From a bacterium BMS3Bbin13 (lineage in GTDB: Bacteria; Pseudomonadota; Gammaproteobacteria; 21-64-14), in NCBI GenBank assembly GCA_002897735.1, contig BDTW01000059.1, forward strand, positions 1-51,593: a DNA stretch of 51,593 nt. Reading direction: 5' to 3'. Under the pieces are notes generated by a model. The model saw only the letters and a program-made list of their open reading frames with translations, was not told the DNA's origin and did not search any database. A program made the translations under genes and the position numbers. Positions 3,116 to 51,593 of this stretch are shown here, piece after piece (the stretch's first letter is position 1; the number at the start of each line of letters is the position of its first letter).

Positions 3116-3556
3116 CTACGGCTTCGGACGCCGGCGCGAGCCGTCCCCGCCTTCCTCGATCCCCTCGATCACCGGACAGCCGTCGCGGCTCGCGGCGCAG
3201 AGATTCAGCAAGAGCCGCAACTCATCGCGCAGATGCTCCAATTCGCCGAGTCGTCTCTCCACCTCGGAGAACTTGCGCGCCGTCAGTTCCCGTACTCGGG
3301 GGCGGGCACCGCTCGGGTCCTCGCGGAAGCGCAGCAGCGCACCGATCTCCGCCAGAGTGAAGTTCATGGTCTGCGCGCGGCGGATGAAACGCAGCCGGGA
3401 CAGGTCGCGCGCCCCGTAGCGGCGCAGACCCGAGGCCGTGCGCCCCACCCGCGGGAGCAGGCCGATCTTCTCGTAGTAGCGCAGCGTATCCGCGCTCAGC
3501 CCGAGGAGCCGGGTCACCGCCCCGATCGGCAGCGGACGTGCGGCACGTTCGCTCAC
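3116..3556 (-). CDS. MerR-family metal-responsive regulator, CueR-like
   Basis: 146 residues. The N-terminal winged helix starts IGAVTRLLGLSADTLRYYEK (11-30) with GLLPRVGRTASGLRRYG, the typical MerR DNA-binding part. A long dimer helix (about 75-118) follows, then a metal-binding loop with Cys120 and Cys127 (LCAASRDGCPVI). Two Cys in this loop, and no Cys at the start of the dimer helix, is the pattern of monovalent-copper/silver sensors such as CueR. Zn, Cd and Pb sensors carry an extra Cys there. The GTG start overlaps the TGA of the thioredoxin-like gene (GTGA), so it is translationally coupled as the last gene of the permease operon. A fitting operator lies at 8064-8094. Metal specificity is inferred. 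Confidence 0.85.
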   Translation of the reverse strand: MSERAARPLPIGAVTRLLGLSADTLRYYEKIGLLPRVGRTASGLRRYGARDLSRLRFIRRAQTMNFTLAEIGALLRFREDPSGARPRVRELTARKFSEVERRLGELEHLRDELRLLLNLCAASRDGCPVIEGIEEGGDGSRRRPKP

Positions 3557-41268: not shown

Positions 41269-41355
41269 GCCGAGGTGGCGGAATTGGTAGACGCGCTAGC
41301 TTCAGGTGCTAGTGAGGGTATCCTCGTGGAGGTTCAAGTCCTCTCCTCGGCACCA
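41269..41355 (+). tRNA. tRNA-Leu (anticodon CAG)
   Basis: 87 bases including an encoded CCA. The acceptor stem GCCGAGG pairs with CCTCGGC, and the D-loop has GGCGGAATTGGTAGACGCG. The anticodon stem is CTAGC/GCTAG around the loop TTCAGGT (anticodon CAG, reads CUG). A long variable arm (GAGGGTATCCTC) marks a class II tRNA, and the T-arm has GGTTCAAGTCC. A terminator follows at 41395. Confidence 0.97.
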
Positions 41356-41394
41356 TTTCAGAATACTATCACAGACCATCAGAAACTCCCAAAG

Positions 41395-41416
41395 ACACTG
41401 TATTTACAGTGTTTTT
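41395..41416 (+). terminator. Rho-independent terminator of tRNA-Leu
   Basis: Perfect 8-bp stem ACACTGTA/TACAGTGT with a TT loop, then TTTT, 40 bases after the tRNA end. Confidence 0.8.
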
Positions 41417-41462
41417 CTCCAAAGTTCGCATATCCACCCTTCATGATTCACACGTACAGGTC

Positions 41463-42701
41463 TCATTGATCCAAAGGATGTGCGCTCATCCTTCCATGCA
41501 AAGACTGTCGAACGAACAACACTGAAACACCCTCGTTCGACTCGACGAGCCGCCGAATCCGACCGGTCACCTCGTCGACCTTGTTCAACTTGGTGGCGGC
41601 ATCCATCGCACGGTCATAAGCCTCCAGGACATCGGCACCGGTCACCTCGTAGCCCCACCCCTGACTCAACCAGCGAAGTGCGGCCATTGCGGAGCCGAGC
41701 GCGAATGTCGGTTCCGAGTCAAGGTAATCCCTTGCCGCCCTTGTCAGCGTTTTTGGATCACAGTGGTTCAGGTCGGCAAGTTCCAGCGCCAGGTCAAAAA
41801 GCCCGATCTCCTTGGCCGCGGCAAACCACTTGCCCTCTTCTCCCGGCGTCGCGGCGATCAGGTCGGCCAGTATCCGTGACTTATCCTTCATCGGATAGCG
41901 CTTCGCGACGGCGCGAAAACGAGCGATATAGGAATTGGCCGCCGCCGCTCTCAATCCATAGCGCCGGTAAGCCTCCTCATGCAGGCCGGATGAAATCAGG
42001 ATCTCCTCACAGGCTTGGGCGATCATGGAATCCGGCTGATTCAATCCCCGCGAGGCCTCGGCATACTGGACGGCCTCCGCCTTCCTGCCCATTGCCAGGA
42101 GAGCCTCGACACCATAGCGTCGATAATGCCACATCGGATACCGCTTCAGTTCCAACAGATCAAACAACTCCTGATGCCGCTCCGCCACCAGCAGGCAAGA
42201 CAAACACGCCGTCGCGCCGTGGAAATAGACGCCCGGATTCGGGTCCGTCCAGCAGGCGCGGAGCGTGGAAACCAGTTCATCGGCCCATCGCCCGGCCATT
42301 TCCACCGAACCACAGATCTCACCCCACCGATCACCGACCGAGCTGAGGTAATCGACACCATCGTCCGCCATCGCCTGCCAGAGCCGGTCGAGCCATTTAC
42401 TGCGAGTCTTGTCGTCAGCGGGCGCCTTGATGATGGTCGGTATCAACGCATCCAGCGCCTTGTTGACGGCCGACCCCAGGGCACCGCTGGAACTGTCCAC
42501 ATGCTCCAGCGCAGGCCAAAGCTTTTCCACCAGACGGACGGCGCCCTCCGCCCCAAGGACGGGATCTTTCCTCGCGATCTTCTTGATCTCGGAGGTGGCT
42601 TCTCGAAGGCGCCGACAGGCAAGCCTCGACGCATTCCAACTATAGGCACCGGTCCGGAAGCGAGCGGGGAAGATCCATTTGTGTTTTCCGTGATCAGTCA
42701 T
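41463..42701 (-). CDS. Hypothetical protein with TPR-like helical repeats
   Basis: 412 residues, all helical, with no signal or membrane part. Blocks include CGSVEMAGRWADELVSTLRA, YRRYGVEALLAMGRKAEAVQ, YAEASRGLNQPDSMIAQACE, EEAYRRYGLRAAAANSYIAR and PGEEGKWFAAAKEIGLFDLA. The repeats of about 34 residues with small and large alternation suggest a TPR-like solenoid. I recall similar hypothetical proteins in other proteobacteria but know no function. The ATG at 42701 (MTDHGKHKWIFPARF) is chosen over the longer frame to 42854. The gene lies alone after tRNA-Leu and has a lower GC content than its neighbours to the left, so it may be acquired. Confidence 0.75.
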   Translation of the reverse strand: MTDHGKHKWIFPARFRTGAYSWNASRLACRRLREATSEIKKIARKDPVLGAEGAVRLVEKLWPALEHVDSSSGALGSAVNKALDALIPTIIKAPADDKTRSKWLDRLWQAMADDGVDYLSSVGDRWGEICGSVEMAGRWADELVSTLRACWTDPNPGVYFHGATACLSCLLVAERHQELFDLLELKRYPMWHYRRYGVEALLAMGRKAEAVQYAEASRGLNQPDSMIAQACEEILISSGLHEEAYRRYGLRAAAANSYIARFRAVAKRYPMKDKSRILADLIAATPGEEGKWFAAAKEIGLFDLALELADLNHCDPKTLTRAARDYLDSEPTFALGSAMAALRWLSQGWGYEVTGADVLEAYDRAMDAATKLNKVDEVTGRIRRLVESNEGVSVLFVRQSLHGRMSAHPLDQ

Positions 42702-43133
42702 CCGACTCGAGCTTCGGGGTTCAAAACCAACAGATAAACATCGATCCTGCAACTGACGGGTTGCCGGCGGGCTTTGGATGATTCCAACCGGTTGTGCACC
42801 GACTTCCGTCCGGTTGAATAACCAATTCTTTAATGGCGAGTGCTGCATAAGCATCGCACCACCATCGCCGCAAGGGTGCTGAATCTTTGGCGCTTACCGC
42901 CGAGCCGCACCGATTCCTCGGCAACCGCACCCCGGACCGGGTTTGTGCGAGCAGCCGGGGTGGTGGTGCAGCGATCGTGGACAAGTTCGGCAAGGATGGA
43001 AAATCGGAAGCTTACGACAACACCGGAGCAGCGCCGACCCGCTGCGTAGGACAGGGGAATACACGGCTTAAATTCGGCGTGTTTCTATCTTGACTCAGGG
43101 GTCCACTTTGGTTCTTGTCTCGACGGCACCTTC
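42702..43133. other. Intergenic region in the accessory part
   Basis: 432 bases without a supported gene. A 68-codon plus-strand frame (42887-43093) has no ribosome-binding site and no family resemblance. Promoters for the TPR-like gene (minus) should lie at 42702-42850, which is A+T-rich near 42820-42850. Confidence 0.4.
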
Positions 43134-43574
43134 CTATGCCGTGAAAACGGCCTTGCAAATATCGCCCCGCGAAATCGTACCGATTAATTTCCCGTTTTTC
43201 ACGACCGGCAAACGGCGCATTTTCTTCATGGCCATGGTAGTAGCGGCCAAGAGGACCGGCGCATCCGGATCAAGGGTGATCGGATCCTTTACAAGATGAT
43301 TATCGATGGGGTCATTTCCCAGGCTCGCACCTTTCTCACTGAAAATGCCGTAAGAACTCCGCAAGTCCCCGCCCTCCTTCATGACCGCACTCATTTCGGG
43401 AAGGGCCAACTGCATCATGTCACCTTCGGACAACACTCCAATAAAATTGTTTTCGTCATCCACCACGAACAAGCCGCTTGCATTGGACACGGCGGCCAAT
43501 TCAGCGGCTTCCGCCATGCTGGAACCGCTCAAGATGCGGATTGGGTTGATGCTCATTATGTCACTCACCTTCAT
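43134..43574 (-). CDS. Protein with two CBS domains
   Basis: About 146 residues: MKVSDIMSINPIRILSGSSM (CBS 1), SGLFVVDDENNFIGVLSEGD, then VKDPITLDPDAPVLLAATTM (CBS 2), and RRLPVVKNGKLIGTISRGDI. A CBS pair binds adenine nucleotides; a stand-alone protein of this type is a sensor of energy state or a partner of another protein. The loop between has MKEGGDLRSSYGIFSEKGAS, as in a common bacterial subgroup. ATG 43574 is taken, although TTG 43580 has better spacing to AAGGAG. No obvious partner gene is next to it. Confidence 0.85.
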   Translation of the reverse strand: MKVSDIMSINPIRILSGSSMAEAAELAAVSNASGLFVVDDENNFIGVLSEGDMMQLALPEMSAVMKEGGDLRSSYGIFSEKGASLGNDPIDNHLVKDPITLDPDAPVLLAATTMAMKKMRRLPVVKNGKLIGTISRGDICKAVFTA

Positions 43575-43580
43575 TTGCAA

Positions 43581-43888
43581 TCATCTCCTTCATGGAAAAC
43601 TTTATTGCGGCTTTTGTCGCCGTTCCCATGGCGTCATAAACTTCCCCCGCCATAGCGCCTTACGAGTATCCCGCGCCTCTTTTTTCCCGTCGATGGAGCA
43701 ACTTAGAAAGGATAAAAGCACTTCCCCCAAAAGTCCATGCTTGGGGTCCCGGTAAATTACCCGTTACCGCCGTTCCGGAGGGGAGCGGCTGCCAAGCGGC
43801 ATGGGGTTTCAGCGAAAGCCGAACTCTGAAACGCGGTTGACGGCGCACGGAACCGCCGCCCCGGTAGCCGATAATATGGAAGATAAAA
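43581..43888. other. Intergenic region left of the tRNA-Arg fragment
   Basis: 308 bases. The CBS gene's promoter should be at 43581-43650. A minus-strand frame at 43660-43848 has no ribosome-binding site or recognisable homology. Nothing else is seen. Confidence 0.4.
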
Positions 43889-43936
43889 TGGTGCGCCCGG
43901 AGAGATTCGAACTCCCGACCACTTGGTTCGTAGCCA
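43889..43936 (-). tRNA. 3' half of tRNA-Arg (ACG), an integration scar
   Basis: Minus strand: the anticodon loop CTACGAA (ACG), then CCAAG, the variable loop, a T-arm with GGGAGTTCGAATCTCTCC and GGGCGCACCA at the end (CCA at 43889-43891). Similarity to tRNA-Arg stops inside the anticodon stem; the next bases (GTTCAGGGGG on the plus strand) do not form the D-arm. A 3' half starting at the anticodon loop is typical of the att core left at one end by a tyrosine-recombinase element. The broken side faces higher coordinates, so the inserted DNA lies to the right. No integrase gene and no intact copy are in the window. Confidence 0.85.
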
Positions 43937-44089
43937 GTTCAGGGGGTGTTTTAGAACAACGACTTAGAACGCTATCCCGCTGTTATTCGACACTTTTTCG
44001 TTCGGTCGTTTACGATCGCTTGCGGTTAGTTGGGCAACTTAGTGTCACAACAGAGTCACAGAGCGACCTTCCTTTCGCTAAAAAAATTT
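43937..44089. other. Element end next to the tRNA-Arg fragment
   Basis: 153 bases of A+T-rich, non-coding sequence between the att core and the tnpB remnant. Repeats of GTCACA and GATCG-like words (44042-44063) may be integrase or excisionase binding sites, as found next to att sites. This is inference. Confidence 0.35.
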
Positions 44090-44341
44090 TGCCATCCTCC
44101 CCGGCCTGAAGTCCGGAGATTCCTACGGCGCTCAGGGGCGGCATTGAGCCGCCCCCGAGTCGCTTCGGCGGGTTCCTGCTGCTGGCGGCATTACCGCACC
44201 GCTCACTTCACAGGCGAACCGGGCGTGTCCCGCCCTTAGAACACTCACCATAGCAGAAAATTCCAGGAAACGGCACAGGACGGCTACGCCGTCCGCGCTA
44301 TCCTTCCCCGCCCTGAACGGCGGGACTTGCCGCGCACCGGG
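44090..44341 (-). mobile_element. Remnant of an IS200/IS605-family tnpB end (PATE-like)
   Basis: On the minus strand, 44251-44132 encodes VLRAGHARFACEVSGAVMPP and AAGTRRSDSGAAQC before a stop, which is the C-terminal tail of TnpB proteins with the RNA-guided nuclease part missing. After it comes a hairpin (CTCCGGACTTCAGGCCGGGGAG, given as stem CTCCGGA/GCCGGGGAG) followed by GATGGCA, as at the right ends of these elements. A second end-like hairpin, CCCGCCGTTCAGGGCGGG, lies at 44307-44324. The region would produce the omega RNA in a full element, whose guide is the DNA just past the right end (below 44090). Likely a small deletion derivative. Confidence 0.65.
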
Positions 44342-44464
44342 TCAGAGTTTTGCAAAACGCGGGGCTCCAATCCACTGGTGGAGACGACGACCTGCGCGAA
44401 TATCCTCTTCTAATAGCTGATATTCCCGGAGTTGCTTATTCCCAGCAACCGCTATTGTATCCGT

Positions 44465-44707
44465 ATGAAACCGGCAACCCTCACAAGCAACCGAAAACTG
44501 CTGCTGTCGCTCAATTCAGTCGCAGAGATACTGGACGTGCCTAAATCGACTCTCTATGACTGGGTACGCCGAGGATTGATCGATTCACCTGTAAAAATCG
44601 GCCGCCACACCTACTGGAAGAGCACCTACATCGAAGCGTGGGTGAATCAGCAGTTTTCCCCCAAACCCACCCGCGGCCGCCCGAGAAGTGCGGTGGAGCA
44701 CATTTGA
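44465..44707 (+). CDS. AlpA-like (excisionase/MerR-HTH) DNA-binding protein
   Basis: 80 residues. The helix-turn-helix is LSLNSVAEILDVPKSTLYDW, VRRGLIDSPVKIGRHTYW, which fits the AlpA/HTH_17 group (recognition helix, then the RxxGxxP-type wing). Proteins of this kind act as transcription or excision regulators in genomic islands. ATG 44465 has no clear Shine-Dalgarno. The stop TGA overlaps a possible TTG start of the TraB-like gene (TTGA). A perfect palindrome sits immediately downstream and may be its operator. Confidence 0.8.
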   Translation: MKPATLTSNRKLLLSLNSVAEILDVPKSTLYDWVRRGLIDSPVKIGRHTYWKSTYIEAWVNQQFSPKPTRGRPRSAVEHI

Positions 44708-46137
44708 CCGCTTTCGCCAAATTTGGCGAAAGCGGTCTGAGGACCCGTTATTCCCACCGAAGCCAAAACAACAACCCGCTGCCCGACGCAGCCGCTTTGC
44801 TCAGCACGGTCGCCCTGTTGGGTGCCGGTTTCTTGGTTGGCTGGCTCGCTTGGCATCCGCCCGATCGCTTCCTCGCGCTGTGGGCGATCCCCTTACTCTG
44901 GCGTTTCCGGTGGCGTCCTCTGCCCAACCGGTTCCTGTTTCTCGGCTACTACGCGAGCGCCTTGTTTCCGGTCGCAACGACGGTTCATGAATTCTGGCCC
45001 CGCGCCAGCCTGGGCGGACCCGCCCTCGCATGGGCCGCCGGCACTCTATTACTTTGGATTCCGTGGGCCTGGGCGGCTCACCGGCCCCAATCACCATGGC
45101 GCTTTACCGCCGCGTTGACCGCCACGGCCCTGCCGCCACTCGGCGCCATCGGACTCGCCTCCCCGCTCTTCGCCGCCTGCCCAACCTTCCCCGGCCTCGG
45201 CCTGGCTGGACTCGTACTTTCCGTCGTGGGCCTCACGATGCTCGCCACCGCGCCGCGCCGCACCGCCTGGGTCACCCTTCTTCTGCTATTACTGGCCGGC
45301 ACCACCGCCAACGTACTCCAAACCCCTGCCGCTCACCGGCCCGCGCCACAGCGGACCGCCTCCCATCAGAGGCCCGTTGCGCCGGAACGGCCCCCCCGCC
45401 CGCAAGGGATTGCCGCCCCGCAAGGGATTGCCGCCCCGCAGGGGATTGCCGCCCCGCAGGGGATTGCCGCCCCGCAGGGGATTGCGCCCCGCCAGGAGGC
45501 GTGGGTCGCGGTGACCACGCATCTCGGGCGTGCCCCCCATACCCTCCTCGCCTGGGCAGGGCGAAATCTGGCGTTGCGCCGAATGGCCCTCGACACCATT
45601 CGCCTCCACCCCGCCGGGTCAGCCATCCTCTTCCCCGAAATGATTGCCGGCCCCTGGACCCGGTGGTCCGCCGGCGTCTGGCGCCCGGTTGCCCGAGCCG
45701 CCCGCGAACGCCATGACACCGTTCTGCTCGGTGCCGTCCTTTCCGATGGGAAAGACCGAAAACTCGATGTCCTGCTCGGCTTAGGCGCTCATCCAAGCGT
45801 CACCGCGGCGCGCCAACCCATCCCTCTCAGCGAATGGCGTCCCTGGGCGCCCGGCTCATTTCCCGCATCCTGGTGGACCTTCGGCCCCTCCCGGGTCGCC
45901 GGCCACCGGACAGCGGTATTGGTGTGTTACGAACAGTTGTTGATCTGGCCGACCGCTTGGTCCTTCCTCTCCACCACACCCCCCACCCTGATGGTGGCGG
46001 TGTCCAATCACGGGTGGGCCGGGCCTGGAGATATCGAGCCACGCATGCAGGCCGATGCCGCCGCCGCGCTCGCACGCCTGTTCGGGGTGCCCCTCGTGAG
46101 CGCATCAAACGCCCCGGCCCATGTCCCACGGGCGTGA
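44704..46137 (+). CDS. traB: TraB-like conjugation protein with nitrilase/Lnt-like domain
   Basis: Up to 477 residues. The N-terminal part has six or so hydrophobic segments (for example ALLSTVALLGAGFLVGWLAW, LGLAGLVLSVVGLTMLATAP). A Pro/Ala-rich linker with five PQGIAA repeats follows. The C-terminal carbon-nitrogen hydrolase-type domain has SAILFPEMIAGPW, TVLLGAVLSDGKDRKLDVLL, and HRTAVLVCYEQLLIWPTAW with the nucleophile-like Cys. LMVAVSNHGWAG completes the pattern of TraB, an apolipoprotein-acyltransferase relative of conjugative plasmids and integrative elements. Start uncertain: TTG 44704 would overlap the palindrome; TTG 44797 is a later option. Confidence 0.7.
   Translation: MTAFAKFGESGLRTRYSHRSQNNNPLPDAAALLSTVALLGAGFLVGWLAWHPPDRFLALWAIPLLWRFRWRPLPNRFLFLGYYASALFPVATTVHEFWPRASLGGPALAWAAGTLLLWIPWAWAAHRPQSPWRFTAALTATALPPLGAIGLASPLFAACPTFPGLGLAGLVLSVVGLTMLATAPRRTAWVTLLLLLLAGTTANVLQTPAAHRPAPQRTASHQRPVAPERPPRPQGIAAPQGIAAPQGIAAPQGIAAPQGIAPRQEAWVAVTTHLGRAPHTLLAWAGRNLALRRMALDTIRLHPAGSAILFPEMIAGPWTRWSAGVWRPVARAARERHDTVLLGAVLSDGKDRKLDVLLGLGAHPSVTAARQPIPLSEWRPWAPGSFPASWWTFGPSRVAGHRTAVLVCYEQLLIWPTAWSFLSTTPPTLMVAVSNHGWAGPGDIEPRMQADAAAALARLFGVPLVSASNAPAHVPRA
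44706..44737. promoter_or_regulatory. 32-bp perfect palindrome
   Basis: Half site GACCGCTTTCGCCAAA (44706-44721) followed by its exact complement TTTGGCGAAAGCGGTC (44722-44737). No T-run follows, so it is not a classic terminator. It lies right at the alpA stop and the start of the TraB-like frame. It could be an operator or a recombinase/relaxase recognition site, or a hairpin that controls translation. Confidence 0.75.
45401..45490 (+). repeat. Five 18-bp tandem repeats in traB
   Basis: Unit CGCAAGGGATTGCCGCCC (two copies) and CGCAGGGGATTGCCGCCC (two copies), with the fifth ending differently. Each unit encodes PQGIAA. Units are in frame, so copy number may vary without breaking the gene. 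Confidence 0.9.
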
Positions 46138-46234
46138 CCACGATAACCGCCATGGATCACGCGTTTATTGTGTTTGCATTTTGGCGTGGATCGGGAAGAT
46201 CAGTCAGGAGATATCACTGACAGGACGAACCGCC

Positions 46235-46978
46235 ATGCCTAGCAAATCGCCAATGCCGCGTGGAACCATCATCCAAGAACAAATCCTCGCCGCGCTAGCC
46301 TTGTCCAAGGGCCACCTCCCGCTGTCGGTTGAAGAACTCGCCCGCGGAGTGCCCGCCTCTCGTGAACCACACGAAATCTCCCAGCAGATTTATCACCTAC
46401 GCCGGGCACAGCGTACCGAGCGGGTGTTTAACCTCAACGGACGCTGGTACTACCGCCTGTGTGCCGGGGTGCGTCCTCACCCTCATGCCGTTCAAGCCGT
46501 ACTGGAAGCCACCAGAAAGAACGGTCCGGTCTCCCGCGGCGAGAGCCAGCTACTACGCTACCGCATCCTGACGTTGCTCTCCGACGCGGCCCAACCCATG
46601 CCCAAAGCCGAGATCGCCGTCGCCTGCCACGAGTGGACCCGCCACGAGGTCTCCCAACAGATCTACGTGCTGGTCGAGTCCGGTGAACTCGGTTGCTCCG
46701 ACGGACCGGGGAAGAAGCTCTTCTGGTATGTCGGCCCGGCGAAACAGAGCCAGCTTCCACTGGTGGAACAAGAGGCCGCCGAGCCGGAACGGGCGGAAAG
46801 CGCGCCCGCAATCGATTTCAGTGCGCTGACACGAGTCGTGCTCCGGATGCCGCTGTATATCGCCCTGCGCGACGCCGGCCAGCCGGTCCGATATGTCGAG
46901 GCCGCTCACGGCGTACGACTGGCTTTTGACGCAAGCACCCACTTGGTGGGCGTCGTGGTTGATCCGCAGGAGGCGTAA
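46235..46978 (+). CDS. Tandem winged-helix protein of unknown function
   Basis: 247 residues. Two similar parts: LSVEELARGVPASREPHEIS, QQIYHLRRAQRTERVFNLNG (about 30-70), and PMPKAEIAVACHEWTRHEVS, QQIYVLVESGELGCSDGPGK (about 118-160). Both have the SQQIY motif, so an internal duplication is likely. The last 60 residues (IDFSALTRVVLRMPLYIALR) are separate. No family name is recognised. The winged helices suggest DNA binding. The next gene starts 4 bases after the stop. ATG with GGA... weak ribosome site. Confidence 0.7.
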   Translation: MPSKSPMPRGTIIQEQILAALALSKGHLPLSVEELARGVPASREPHEISQQIYHLRRAQRTERVFNLNGRWYYRLCAGVRPHPHAVQAVLEATRKNGPVSRGESQLLRYRILTLLSDAAQPMPKAEIAVACHEWTRHEVSQQIYVLVESGELGCSDGPGKKLFWYVGPAKQSQLPLVEQEAAEPERAESAPAIDFSALTRVVLRMPLYIALRDAGQPVRYVEAAHGVRLAFDASTHLVGVVVDPQEA

Positions 46979-46982
46979 ACCG

Positions 46983-47204
46983 GTGAACTCCCCTAGACCC
47001 ATTGTTGATTACGCGTTCCGTGACCCGCGCAGCATCGCCGCCCAATTGCGCGGGCACGGCGACGGCGCGGAATTCGACTGGCTGCAGTTCCGAGATAACG
47101 TGCTGCGCAAGCATCCCGGGCTCGACGATTCCGAGATTACCGCCCTTTACCGAGCGGCGCGACAGGACCGGGACCAAACATCCGGGAATGGCGGACTGCG
47201 CTGA
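46983..47204 (+). CDS. Small hypothetical protein
   Basis: 73 residues: NSPRPIVDYAFRDPRSIAAQ, LRGHGDGAEFDWLQFRDNVL, SEITALYRAARQDRDQ. A GTG start at 46983 has GGAGG 8 bases upstream (within the end of the previous gene). The stop TGA is followed immediately by GTG of the methyltransferase gene. The tight spacing says the three genes are one operon. No function known. Confidence 0.6.
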   Translation: MNSPRPIVDYAFRDPRSIAAQLRGHGDGAEFDWLQFRDNVLRKHPGLDDSEITALYRAARQDRDQTSGNGGLR

Positions 47205-48692
47205 GTGAACCGTGCCCAAGAATTCGAGACGCAGGATCTTTTCCAGCCGAATCCTCCGGATATCCGCTTGATTGGGACTGATGCGCTGCCCGCCCTCGAT
47301 TCCCTGCCGGAGCGGTCGGTGCAGGCCGTTATTACCAGTCCCCCGTATTGGGGGTTGCGTGATTACGGGCTGCCGCCCTCCGTCTGGACGCCGGTCGAAT
47401 ACGTTCCGATGACCGGACTCCCCCCGATCCAGGTACCCGCCGGGATGCGCGGGGACGACTGGGCGGATTGCGACCACGATTGGGGGGAGTGGACCGAGCG
47501 TCACGAGACTCGCGAGGGGGTCACGGCCGGTAAGACCCGCACGAGCGATCGTTGCTACGGAGAGGCCAGCCGCCGATTCAACGGCGCCCACCACACCCAC
47601 ATCCACGGGCAATTCTGCCAGCGCTGCGGAGCGTGGCGCGGGTGCTTGGGTCTCGAGCCGGATCCCCATCTCTATATCGGTCATCTGGTGCAGGTGTTGC
47701 GGGCCATTCGGCGCGTACTGCGCGACGACGGGACCGTGTGGCTGAATCTGGGGGATTCTTTCACCAGCGGAAATCGGAAGCACCGGGATTGGGACCTCAC
47801 GAGTAAAAACGAAACACGAACCCCGCATACCTATCCCCCCACCCCCAGTGGACTGAAGCCAAAGGATCTCGTCGGCATTCCCTGGCGGGCCGCCTTTGCC
47901 CTCCAGGCCGACGGCTGGTACTTGCGCTCGGATATCGTGTGGGCCAAGGGCGTATCGTTCGCACGCAACGAGTGCGGGAACGCGATGCCCGAATCGGTGA
48001 CGGATCGCCCGGTACGCGGACACGAGTTTCTGTTCCTGCTCGCCAAGTCCGAGCACTACTACTACGACCACTACGCCGTGCAGGAGGCCGCAGTCGCTAA
48101 ACTCCAACGTCGCCTCACGCCGCGCCACAGTGCGCGAGACCAGGTGATGCGCACGGATAAGGTCTATCCCTACCGCTTGATGGACGAACCCGCCAGAGCG
48201 CAATCACGACGCAACCTGCGCGATGTGTGGCGGCTCAACACCCGTCCATTCAAGGGGGCGCACTTTGCGGTTTTCCCACCGGATCTCGTGCGCCCGGCAC
48301 TACGTGCGGCCACCCCAGAGATCGGGGTGTGCGCCGTCTGCGGGGCACCGTGGCACAGACGCACCCGTCGCGACGCGATGGTCGCGCAAGATCCCTGTCG
48401 CCCGGATCCACGTACCGGCGGCGTGTTCTCGACACAGGGGTGGGATCGTACCGGAATGACCCACCAACAATTGTCGATATGGCTCGCCGAGCATCCTGAG
48501 GAGCACGAGGGGTGGGTGTCGGGGTGCTCGTGCGGTGCGAGAACGACGCCCGCACTCGTACTCGACCCTTTCGCCGGTGCCGGAACGACCGGGGTGGTTG
48601 CGCGGGAGGAGGGCCGCGCAGCCATTCTCATTGAGCCGAAGGGAGACTATCGCGAGATCATCGCCTCGCGGCTCGGGCTGGCGCGTCCATAA
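47205..48692 (+). CDS. DNA (N4-cytosine/N6-adenine) methyltransferase, beta class
   Basis: 495 residues. Catalytic motif IV is TSPPYWG (44-50) near the start. The AdoMet motif LVLDPFAGAGTTGVVAREEG is close to the end, the order of the beta class. Two Cys-rich stretches, FCQRCGAWRGCLG and CAVCGAPWHRR, plus HVxxCSCG near the end, could form zinc knuckles in the target-recognition region. No endonuclease gene is adjacent, so it is an orphan modification enzyme, as phages and mobile elements often carry. GTG start right after the previous stop. Confidence 0.85.
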   Translation: MNRAQEFETQDLFQPNPPDIRLIGTDALPALDSLPERSVQAVITSPPYWGLRDYGLPPSVWTPVEYVPMTGLPPIQVPAGMRGDDWADCDHDWGEWTERHETREGVTAGKTRTSDRCYGEASRRFNGAHHTHIHGQFCQRCGAWRGCLGLEPDPHLYIGHLVQVLRAIRRVLRDDGTVWLNLGDSFTSGNRKHRDWDLTSKNETRTPHTYPPTPSGLKPKDLVGIPWRAAFALQADGWYLRSDIVWAKGVSFARNECGNAMPESVTDRPVRGHEFLFLLAKSEHYYYDHYAVQEAAVAKLQRRLTPRHSARDQVMRTDKVYPYRLMDEPARAQSRRNLRDVWRLNTRPFKGAHFAVFPPDLVRPALRAATPEIGVCAVCGAPWHRRTRRDAMVAQDPCRPDPRTGGVFSTQGWDRTGMTHQQLSIWLAEHPEEHEGWVSGCSCGARTTPALVLDPFAGAGTTGVVAREEGRAAILIEPKGDYREIIASRLGLARP

Positions 48693-48708
48693 TCCGCCGC
48701 GCTACCCA

Positions 48709-49176
48709 ATGCCTCTCGAGAGGGCACAAATCCGCGACCTGGGTATGCCGCGGATGGTGAGCGCCCCTGAAGAAGCAATGATGGACGCCGACGGTTACCC
48801 GGACAAGCGCGACCTGAATACCGTTCAGTTCTGGTCGCTCGATTCCAGCGATCCTTACTACGGATACGACGGATTGATGGCCCAGGTTCACTCGCTGTGG
48901 ACACACGCCGGCGACTGGTGCTAAGCGCGACAGGGTTCGCTCTATCGGATTACCACGGCCGGCTGGTCCGGTAACGAGGGTCTTATTCAAGCACTTCGCG
49001 AGAACCGGATGTTCTGGGGGCCGTGCTGGGTGATGTCCGCGAGTAACGGCGTGCATGTGCTCTGTATCGACCTTGCATCGAAAGACAAAAGTGCAATGCT
49101 TTCGAAGATCGATGAGGTCGTCCATCGCGCGCTGTCCGACCCGGAAGACATGCGTAACAGGGGTATTGGTAGATGA
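48709..49176 (+). pseudogene. Hypothetical protein split by an in-frame TAA
   Basis: Reading from ATG 48709 (MPLERAQIRDLGMPRM) gives 71 codons, ending ...LWTHAGDWC, then TAA at 48922-48924. The same frame then continues without stop for 83 codons: QGSLYRITTAGWSGNEGLIQ, ALRENRMFWGPCWVMSASNG, VHVLCIDLAS. A whole protein of about 155 residues with ...GDWC...YRITTAGWSGNE.. matches what I recall of a phage/hypothetical family. So TAA is a nonsense mutation, an error, or a recoded stop. The next ORF starts with ATG overlapping the final TGA. Confidence 0.65.
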
Positions 49177-49520
49177 TCAAAACCACGGTGTTCGAGTTTA
49201 GGCGTTTTTGGGACGATAACGCGTTCTGGGGTGAGGGCCATTATTGTGAGGATGAGATCGTCGTGGATGCGGACGGGAAAGAATATGGAGCATGGGGCGA
49301 GATGTCTCTCCCCAATGCTCTTTCCAATCGGGAGGTGATTCGTATCCACAGTGGCAACATCTATGACTCAAGTGGAAGATCGATTTGCTCGCTTGATCGT
49401 TATTTCCGGAAGTGGACCAAACAGCAGAGCGTTAAGCGTCTTTGCATCGAGATCCCCATTAACCGCGCGGATGAAATGATAGCCGCCCTCCGCTCAATGG
49501 GCGGAAAAGTTGTCTCATGA
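49173..49520 (+). CDS. Hypothetical protein
   Basis: 115 residues, soluble: MIKTTVFEFRRFWDDNAFWG, GEGHYCEDEIVVDADGKEYG, RIHSGNIYDSSGRSICSLDR, YFRKWTKQQSVKRLCIEIPI. ATG overlaps the stop of the previous gene (ATGA). The sequence is less GC-rich than the rest of the window. No family recognised. Confidence 0.6.
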   Translation: MIKTTVFEFRRFWDDNAFWGEGHYCEDEIVVDADGKEYGAWGEMSLPNALSNREVIRIHSGNIYDSSGRSICSLDRYFRKWTKQQSVKRLCIEIPINRADEMIAALRSMGGKVVS

Positions 49521-49551
49521 ACAATCGGACACGTTGAGTGTTGAGGATATT

Positions 49552-49824
49552 ATGAATCGGAAGCAACCTTATCGCCACGATTTCAGTGGACACTGTGCTC
49601 CGAAAGCGAGGTTTTTGGCGTCGCACGGGACGTTCAACTCCTTCTCAGTTGGCGTATTCCAGTGGATACCCAAGACCAAAGGCGGACTCAAGAAATCCCC
49701 GGTGAAGTACCGTATTCGCGGGTTTGTGGGTAACCCGGAGCCTGTCTACGCGCGAGCCCGCGAGGTTTGCCGAATGTTCGATGCCGGAGAATGCCCGTCG
49801 ACAAAATCAGAATTGATCACCTGA
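49552..49824 (+). CDS. Hypothetical protein
   Basis: 90 residues: NRKQPYRHDFSGHCAPKARF, LASHGTFNSFSVGVFQWIPK, KSPVKYRIRGFVGNPEPVYA, REVCRMFDAGECP. ATG 49552 has GAGG 6 bases upstream. A longer frame from TTG 49510 overlaps the previous gene and is less likely. Function unknown. Confidence 0.55.
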   Translation: MNRKQPYRHDFSGHCAPKARFLASHGTFNSFSVGVFQWIPKTKGGLKKSPVKYRIRGFVGNPEPVYARAREVCRMFDAGECPSTKSELIT

Positions 49825-49862
49825 ATGCGGTGATTAATTTTACCGACGATGAGGAGAGAATC

Positions 49863-50249
49863 ATGAAGATCGTACCCCTGTATTGCGATCTAATCGAAGA
49901 CGTTCTCATGCGCCGGGAGGAAGACTCGGACTGGTGGAAAACGGACCCGCGATACCCGGCTATCCGCTTGGCCGTTCGCCTGGCCCGTACGCTCTCCGCG
50001 AAGATCAGGGAACGCGAGGGAGTGGAGGTGGGTGTGGACGAAATCCTGCGCCTCGATTGCACGGCGTGTGGACACACGGATTACGTGCGCCGGATGGCGA
50101 TCGGCATCCAAGATTTGATTGGCAGACCCTCATCATCCCCACGGGGATCGCCATTCACATCAGGATCCCCGATCTGGCGGCGATGCTCCTGCCCCGCTCA
50201 GTGCTCGGCCACAAGCATGGGATCGTCCTCGGCAATTTGGTCGGGCTGA
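49863..50249 (+). CDS. Hypothetical protein, probably chimeric at its 3' end
   Basis: 128 residues. The start [20 protein letters not shown], and [34 protein letters not shown] look like a real protein, with AGGAGA upstream. After about residue 83 the sequence turns into Ser/Arg-rich shadow translation ([20 protein letters not shown]) of the dUTPase fragment in another frame. The junction is near 50110-50125. Confidence 0.5.
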
Positions 50250-50371
50250 TCAATTCCGACTATCAGGGGCAAGTGTTCGTCTCCTGCTGGAATCGGAGCG
50301 ATACCCCTTGCACGATCGATGGATATCGGAAGGCGGCGAGGTATCAAGAGCCAAATGAACAGAGACTTTAG
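50120..50371 (+). pseudogene. dut: dUTPase (dut) fragment, catalytically altered
   Basis: Frame 50120-50371 encodes [34 protein letters not shown] and [30 protein letters not shown], which is the core of dUTP pyrophosphatase. The first third (before LIIPTG) and the end with the phosphate-binding GxGG(F)GST motif are missing. GLIDSDYQG is changed to GLINSDYQG, replacing the catalytic Asp, and PRSGLG to PRSVLG. So this is a non-functional remnant, created by recombination. Confidence 0.85.
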
Positions 50372-51260
50372 ACTGAATAAGGTTAAGATCGCCGAACAGA
50401 TAGAAAAGGCCGCCGCCAAGCACGATGAGATCCGCGCACGGCTTTGCGCCCCGCTTACCGAGGACCCACGCCGGTTCAACGCGGTCTCGCTTCGCGAGTG
50501 GGTCGGCTTCGCCCAAGCGGCGGGGCTGAATCCGGTGCCGGCCGAACCGGTGGCGAGCCTGCCGGTTGATGTCGTTCTGCGATTTGACTGCCCAAGGCCG
50601 GAGGACGCCCCGTACTGGAAGGCATTCGAGCGGGCGCTCGAGGAGACCGGCCCGGGGGAGATGGTGCGCTGGTCGGCTTGCGCTTCGATGGAACTGAAGT
50701 GGGCCATGGGCGCGGCGGTCGATCCACAGTCCCCGGACCGCTGGGGGCATCGCCCGGCGGCCTACCTCACGCCGGACGACCCGCGGGCCTTCGATGTTAT
50801 TTACGAGTACCCGGAGGAGACGATTGAGGTGCTCCGTCGCCCCTGGGTCGAGGCCCGCCGGGTGGGCGCCCATCCGGTGGAGTACCGCGTGTTCGTGCAG
50901 GACTCAGCGGTGCTCGGAATCTCGAGCTACTACCCACAGCGCCCGTTGGTGCGCGACGCCCAGGTCGAGCGCGAACTCGCCGAGGTGCGCGCCCAGACCG
51001 AGCGGCTGATCCGACACCTCGATGCCTGCGCCCGCCTGCCCTGGCACCCGGGTTACGGGAAGCGGTACGACCCGGAGCGGGTGCACTGCACGCTCGACTT
51101 CCTGGTCGAGACGGACGGCGCGGTGCGCCTTCTCGAGGCCGGCCCCCCGTGGGGCGCCGGCGCGCACCCGTGCTGCTTCGAGGGCCGGGAGGTCGCCGGG
51201 ATCGCGCTCGACCCACTCGGCCCCGTGGAACCGCTGGAGCCGGATGCGCCCGCGCCCTGA
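50355..51260 (+). CDS. ATP-grasp-like protein (R2K-type), tentative
   Basis: 301 residues from ATG 50355. Blocks [60 protein letters not shown] and [20 protein letters not shown], which resemble the ATP-grasp proteins of phages (R2K/DUF4343) that handle peptides or amino acids. This is a match by pattern only. GC is high, unlike the small genes to the left. It overlaps the dut fragment by 17 bases. Confidence 0.45.
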
Positions 51261-51421
51261 GCAATTGGCAGGACCGGCGACAAACAAAACGCATTCTCAG
51301 TGAGTGGTTTGGGTGCAAGGAAGCACTTCGAATCAACTACCCATCAACTAACCAACCGACTGTTTCAGTAGAAAAAGTATTGGCATACCGGCTGGCGCCG
51401 ACCTTAAGGAGCAACTACGAC

Positions 51422-51593
51422 ATGCAAAACTACCTCGATTTGATGCAACACGTACTGCGGCACGGTACCCGCAAGGGGGACCGCACCGGTACGGGTACCT
51501 TGAGCGTGTTCGGTCACCAGATGCGCTTCGACCTCTCCCGCGGCTTCCCGGCGGTCACCACCAAGAAGCTGCACCTCAAGTCGATCATCCACG
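51422..51593 (+). CDS. thyA: Thymidylate synthase, 5' part
   Basis: 57 codons are in the window: [40 protein letters not shown], and [17 protein letters not shown], the typical ThyA N-terminus with the phosphate-binding Arg in RTGTGT. It makes dTMP from dUMP. AAGGAG lies 11-16 bases before the ATG. It may be chromosomal, or carried by the element. The window ends inside the gene. Confidence 0.95.

Follow-up and report, generated by a model that had tools for sequence, protein, structure and literature searches.

The minus-strand segment at positions 43886-43936 of the window, by which the whole analysed stretch of 51,593 nucleotides is meant, is very probably the attL scar of a tyrosine-integrase element that inserted at the 3' half of tRNA-Arg(ACG). 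The evidence on hand for integration consists of the tRNA fragment, an exact repeat of it, an intact tRNA, an integrase gene adjoining this tRNA and a flanking motif found on the expected side. As a genomic island boundary, the locus is well supported but ordinary, and of a kind already known. The genome is a draft of 2.69 Mb in 62 contigs with 97% completeness, and as the window is the whole of contig C59, the integrase and the partner repeat were sought on other contigs.

The tRNA fragment and its exact repeat

The features of the window that bear on this reading are the following.

41356-43885 (no strand): proposed host side of attL, lineage-specific, with a 463-aa gene and a CBS-domain protein; synteny with the congener G001 stops at 41356
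43886-43936 (minus strand): probable attL core, the displaced tRNA-Arg(ACG) 3' half, a 51-bp exact repeat of C53:1597-1647
43937-51593 (no strand): putative visible distal part of the element, as judged from the att geometry, the AlpA-like gene and the accessory genes; it runs off the contig end
44088-44344 (plus strand): multi-copy non-coding repeat of ~257 bp, located 150 bp inside the border; the genome has 45 matches to it, whole or partial
44465-44707 (plus strand): AlpA/excisionase-like helix-turn-helix protein, 80 aa (HTH_17, E=2.5e-11; phrog_66 'excisionase and transcriptional regulator', E=3.2e-12)
44638-46137 (plus strand): TraB-like (nitrilase-fold) protein; TraB models match at aa 284-494 only, below the curated cut-off
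46235-46978 (plus strand): 247-aa protein, no match in Pfam, PHROG, NCBIfam or PADLOC
47205-48692 (plus strand): DNA methyltransferase (N6/N4), 495 aa (N6_N4_Mtase, E=1.2e-29; phrog_67, E=1.3e-47)
49173-49520 (plus strand): phage-type protein (phrog_4254, E=3.9e-15)
50319-51260 (plus strand): R2K ATP-grasp-like protein (R2K_2, E=4.9e-6)
51422-51593 (plus strand): 5' end of a thyA frame; its last 127 bp are identical to chromosomal thyA (contig C34)

Read on the minus strand, positions 43889-43936 (TGGCTACGAACCAAGTGGTCGGGAGTTCGAATCTCTCCGGGCGCACCA) are the 3' half of a tRNA-Arg(ACG) down to its CCA, as the preliminary description had proposed, and cover the end of the 5' anticodon stem, the anticodon ACG, the variable arm, the T arm, the 3' strand of the acceptor and the terminal CCA. 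ARAGORN called no tRNA at these positions, and the segment is therefore a fragment and no whole gene. When the 48-mer was searched with up to three mismatches in the whole genome, two sites were returned, the one in the window and an intact tRNA-Arg(ACG) at C53:1600-1676, and the reversed pattern used as a control gave 0 matches. The exact repeat is 51 bp long with 0 mismatches (window 43886-43936 and C53:1597-1647) and is present in two copies in the genome, the second of which lies inside the intact tRNA-Arg(ACG). A chance origin of this match is excluded. Identity to the C53 copy ends sharply at 43937, in line with the break that had been described on the right side of the fragment. The genome thus holds the matching tRNA-Arg whose absence the preliminary description had regarded as damaging to its proposal; nor did the fragment prove common in relatives free of the island, as most of the matches examined in 35 other genomes proved to be intact tRNA-Arg genes.

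In the anticodon stem, both copies read CCAAG, while CCAGG is found in most of the tRNA-Arg(ACG) relatives examined. This would mean that the attP of the element matched the host's own allele, and the shared allele suggests that the latest move of the element took place within the host lineage.

The integrase beside the intact tRNA

On contig C53, a tyrosine integrase gene of 375 aa (C53:427-1554, minus strand; Pfam Phage_integrase, E=4e-25; phrog_1, E=9.5e-54) starts 46 bp from the 3' end of tRNA-Arg(ACG). This contig thus supplies what had been expected beyond the window, namely the direct repeat within an intact tRNA-Arg(ACG) and, adjoining this tRNA in a fitting orientation, an integrase. 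To the left of the tRNA, C53 has ~1.6 kb, including the integrase gene; to the right lies tRNA-Ser(GCT), followed by genes that we take to be csrA, lysC, alaS, recX and recA, names given from ORF translations without a family search.

The two tRNA-Arg(ACG) copies, the fragment on C59 and the intact gene on C53, lie on the minus strand, and a single insertion therefore predicts that C59 is the first half of the locus and C53 the second. Indeed, the observed parts are compatible with the order host DNA, 3' fragment (attL, C59), element, integrase, regenerated tRNA (attR, C53) and tRNA-Ser-csrA-lysC-alaS-recA. C59 and C53 are unjoined in the assembly, and we infer their contiguity across the element, the assignment of C59 43937-51593 and C53:1-1596 to one element, the length of this element and the exact crossover point. 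At the outer end of C53, positions 1-127 equal C28:1-127 and belong on both contigs to a pyridine nucleotide-disulphide oxidoreductase gene (C53:1-330, C28:1-1442), which on C53 is broken by an IS200-like transposase end.

In the proposed mechanism, the element would carry a copy of the tRNA-Arg(ACG) 3' half in its attP, and strand exchange would occur near the start of the repeat, the anticodon-loop region, at which identity begins, being its most likely place. The element's own 3' half would then rebuild a working tRNA-Arg beside the integrase gene on C53, while the host's 3' half would be moved away to the opposite end of the element and appear as the fragment in the window. The AlpA-like protein at 44465-44707 is a candidate excision factor.

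The integrase family and the motif behind the tRNA

Among 80 relatives of the integrase in GTDB genomes (L043-L122), 58 have a tRNA gene on the same strand at most 250 bp upstream. A motif close to AATCAAGCACTTA, with three mismatches at most, follows the CCA in 36 of these 58 tRNA-adjacent loci, compared with a mean of 0.6 and a maximum of 4 in shuffles, a figure that is descriptive and no formal test since part of the loci had been viewed before the motif was chosen and since the rows are related to one another. The sequence after the tRNA on C53, CCATTTAATCAAGTAGTTACG, contains the motif, whereas CCATTTTATCTTCCATATTATCGG, on the left of the window fragment, does not; the C53 flank therefore looks like the integrase side of the element, and the left flank in the window would be the host side. 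In some members the motif may be owed to tRNA terminators, and in two loci (L103 and L120) it runs on into a hairpin and a T-run. The comparison between C53 and the window holds in any case, because it is independent of the origin of the motif. Complete repeat pairs were found in two relatives, one with a 5.3-kb interval at a tRNA-Met (L057) and one in a tandem arrangement at a tRNA-Leu (L058).

Most of the family members found in this analysis come from Acidithiobacillus and from unnamed proteobacterial and Nitrospirae metagenome bins, and several genomes (e.g., JAJYEE and JAJYQN) have members at several tRNA genes. In a tree of 57 tRNA-adjacent members with 24 different anticodon targets, at least 38 target changes are required versus 46.6 with shuffled labels, and targets are therefore partly inherited. 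For the tRNA-Arg(ACG) label, at least four changes are forced by well-supported branches. The closest relative of the C53 integrase is that of L043 (66% identity, support 100/99), located at a tRNA-Asn in a locus that carries RadC and a TrwC-type relaxase. None of the visible island genes was found beside the integrase relatives.

Cargo of the visible part

The non-coding repeat just inside the border is probably a MITE of the IS200/IS605 type: where its right end recurs on C53, the C-terminal part of an IS200-like transposase lies next to it (Pfam Y1_Tnp, E=4.1e-10). A candidate HgcC RNA at 44077-44156 was rejected, as it scores far below the Rfam gathering threshold, and in the border region Rfam returned tRNA-Leu only. 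The AlpA-like gene lies 530 bp inside the border, with a perfect 32-bp palindrome, GACCGCTTTCGCCAAATTTGGCGAAAGCGGTC (44706-44737), at its end. It is overlapped by the TraB-like ORF, whose true start is therefore uncertain. The TraB-like protein compares with plasmid TraB proteins at 35-38% and represents the only hint of conjugation in the visible 7.7 kb; its ORF includes a tandem repeat of GIAAPQ units (45396-45496), and a similar repeat is found in G001 (C63, near 3135-3197). A search of this genome bin for a relaxase of the L043 type gave a weak match outside the relaxase domain, and no comparable relaxase was found.

Other genes have phage-type relatives. The DNA methyltransferase has phage relatives at up to 45%, and none in viral contigs. 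A search of 368 other genomes of the class did not return the ATP-grasp protein. Its one relative in the viral collection (40%) comes from viral contig L143, where its gene lies shortly after that of a methyltransferase; the contig has genes for a CI-like repressor and a DnaB-like helicase as well. Among the visible genes, that is, in the distal 7.7 kb only, no structural phage gene (capsid, terminase or portal) was found. With 7.7 kb visible and a mixed cargo, the element may be either an ICE/IME or a phage-derived island.

The thyA junction and the extent of the element

The preliminary description had let the unusual genes extend to 51260, a position that is not the right end of the element, which runs off the contig. 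In the thyA frame that starts at 51422, the upstream region and the first ~14 codons differ from chromosomal thyA (C34:49261-50049 of this genome, G000), and C34 is intact through lgt and thyA into a gene reading as dfrA. No contig in the assembly offers a second exit from thyA. The 127-bp identity at the end of C59 has the size of the overlap between C53 and C28, and the junction is therefore probably an assembly-graph fork. The frame could be either the element's own thyA, identical to that of the host after the start, or the host thyA with something attached at its 5' end in a part of the sample.

The entry of the window into a sequence identical to the chromosomal gene, the combination of a plasmid-type gene with phage-type genes and the lack of a cargo gene common to the loci of the integrase relatives would all agree with a relic, that is, an element that once inserted and whose end was later joined to unrelated DNA by deletion, second insertion or rearrangement, so that the visible 7.7 kb need not belong with the C53 integrase. 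Such a history is unlikely, given that all 51 bp of the repeat still agree, that the integrase frame is intact at the other repeat copy and that the AlpA-like gene lies directly inside the border. Decidedly improbable is also a multi-site element, of which the segment from 43937 to ~51462 would be a part bounded by tRNA-Arg(ACG) and thyA 5'-end cores. If this were true, integration at the 5' end of thyA would coexist in the sample with an uninterrupted lgt-thyA site; thyA was not recognised as a natural integration site in the literature with the terms used.

The left flank and the congener

Alignment to the only congener, G001, ends at 41356, which is the 3' end of tRNA-Leu and lies 2.5 kb left of the fragment, and a low-GC stretch begins already at ~41 kb, near the end of this tRNA. 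The 463-aa gene (41463-42854) is absent from G001, and no useful synteny was obtained between the genes of the left flank and the tRNA-Arg loci of class-level relatives. The lineage-specific nature of 41356-43885 means that the host side of the putative attL is not conserved sequence, which counts against the integration reading, as do the unjoined state of C59 and C53, the lack of an empty site in the only congener and the absence of the visible island genes from the loci of the integrase relatives. It also qualifies two statements of the preliminary description. The fragment can be kept as the left border of this element, with element genes to the right of 43937, but not as the place where atypical DNA starts, and unusual sequence is not confined to the right of the fragment, since the lineage-specific, low-GC DNA lies to its left.

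At tRNA-Leu(CAG) (41269-41356; in G001, C47, locus L147, 2808-2895), the 3' end is the precise point at which synteny breaks off, and the genes that follow differ between the two genomes. The 3' end of this tRNA could possibly be a second integration hot spot. A second element end at tRNA-Leu was considered and rejected, as no second 3' copy was found in the genome.

In G001, the fragment has two matches, which correspond to the contig ends on either side of the only tRNA-Arg of this genome. Its tRNA-Arg(ACG) is occupied by a different tyrosine integrase of 367 aa in the opposite orientation (C63, locus L022, 5153-6256); because of this G001 offers no empty site, and this tRNA is therefore a repeated target. 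A 12-mer, GTAACTACTTGA, near the tRNA end is common to the last codons of the G001 integrase and the C53 flank.

As the region 41356-51593 is variable on both sides of the fragment, the latter might also be conceived as an independent tRNA pseudogene, or as part of a tRNA that other mobile DNA brought along as cargo, with no site-specific integration at this position. This is very improbable, because the fragment ends exactly at CCA, agrees in all of 51 bp with the one tRNA behind which an integrase lies and is oriented as an attL would be. An assembly chimera, in which the tRNA-half repeat misjoined two unrelated contigs, would suit a draft in 62 contigs, some of whose ends overlap exactly over 127 bp, but is scarcely credible. 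The fragment lies 43.9 kb inside C59, with another 7.7 kb to the right end of the contig, and a repeat of 51 bp, much shorter than the apparent overlap length of 127 bp, would not be expected to produce a misjoin.

Comparison with known systems

A regenerated tRNA together with a displaced fragment is the defining signature of Islander islands (PMC4383910), of which 3760 out of 3919 have a 3' fragment and 2083 an anticodon-centred site (PMC4383910). The locus described here shares with them the regenerated tRNA, the displaced 3' fragment, the tyrosine integrase beside the intact tRNA and the repeat starting from the anticodon region, and differs in that its interval is split over two contigs, the orientation of both being compatible. 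L043-type integrative conjugative or mobilizable elements resemble it in their 66% identical integrase, its same place behind the tRNA and the related flanking motif; in contrast, L043 uses tRNA-Asn and has RadC together with a relaxase of the TrwC type, while a TraB-like gene and no comparable relaxase were found here. The succession of methyltransferase and ATP-grasp genes, as in L143, is a likeness to phage-derived islands and prophages at tRNA genes; unlike prophages, the visible part has a plasmid-type TraB-like gene and no structural phage gene. In the tripartite ICEs of Mesorhizobium, three integrases act on sites that include guaA and tRNA genes (PMC8627217). These would be resembled if the window segment were bounded by tRNA-Arg and thyA cores; they differ from the present case of one integrase and one att pair, in which a thyA attachment site is only a proposal.

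Significance for the element and its integrase family

The analysis places one mobile-element boundary with single-base precision and links it to the element's integrase, and the DNA to the right of 43937 can therefore be treated as imported. Tyrosine integrases are known to switch target among tRNA genes, and the wide target range of this family adds breadth, not a new kind. In their moves between many tRNA genes, the family members have retained their position behind the tRNA, and the family is thus usable for studying how tyrosine integrases change target.
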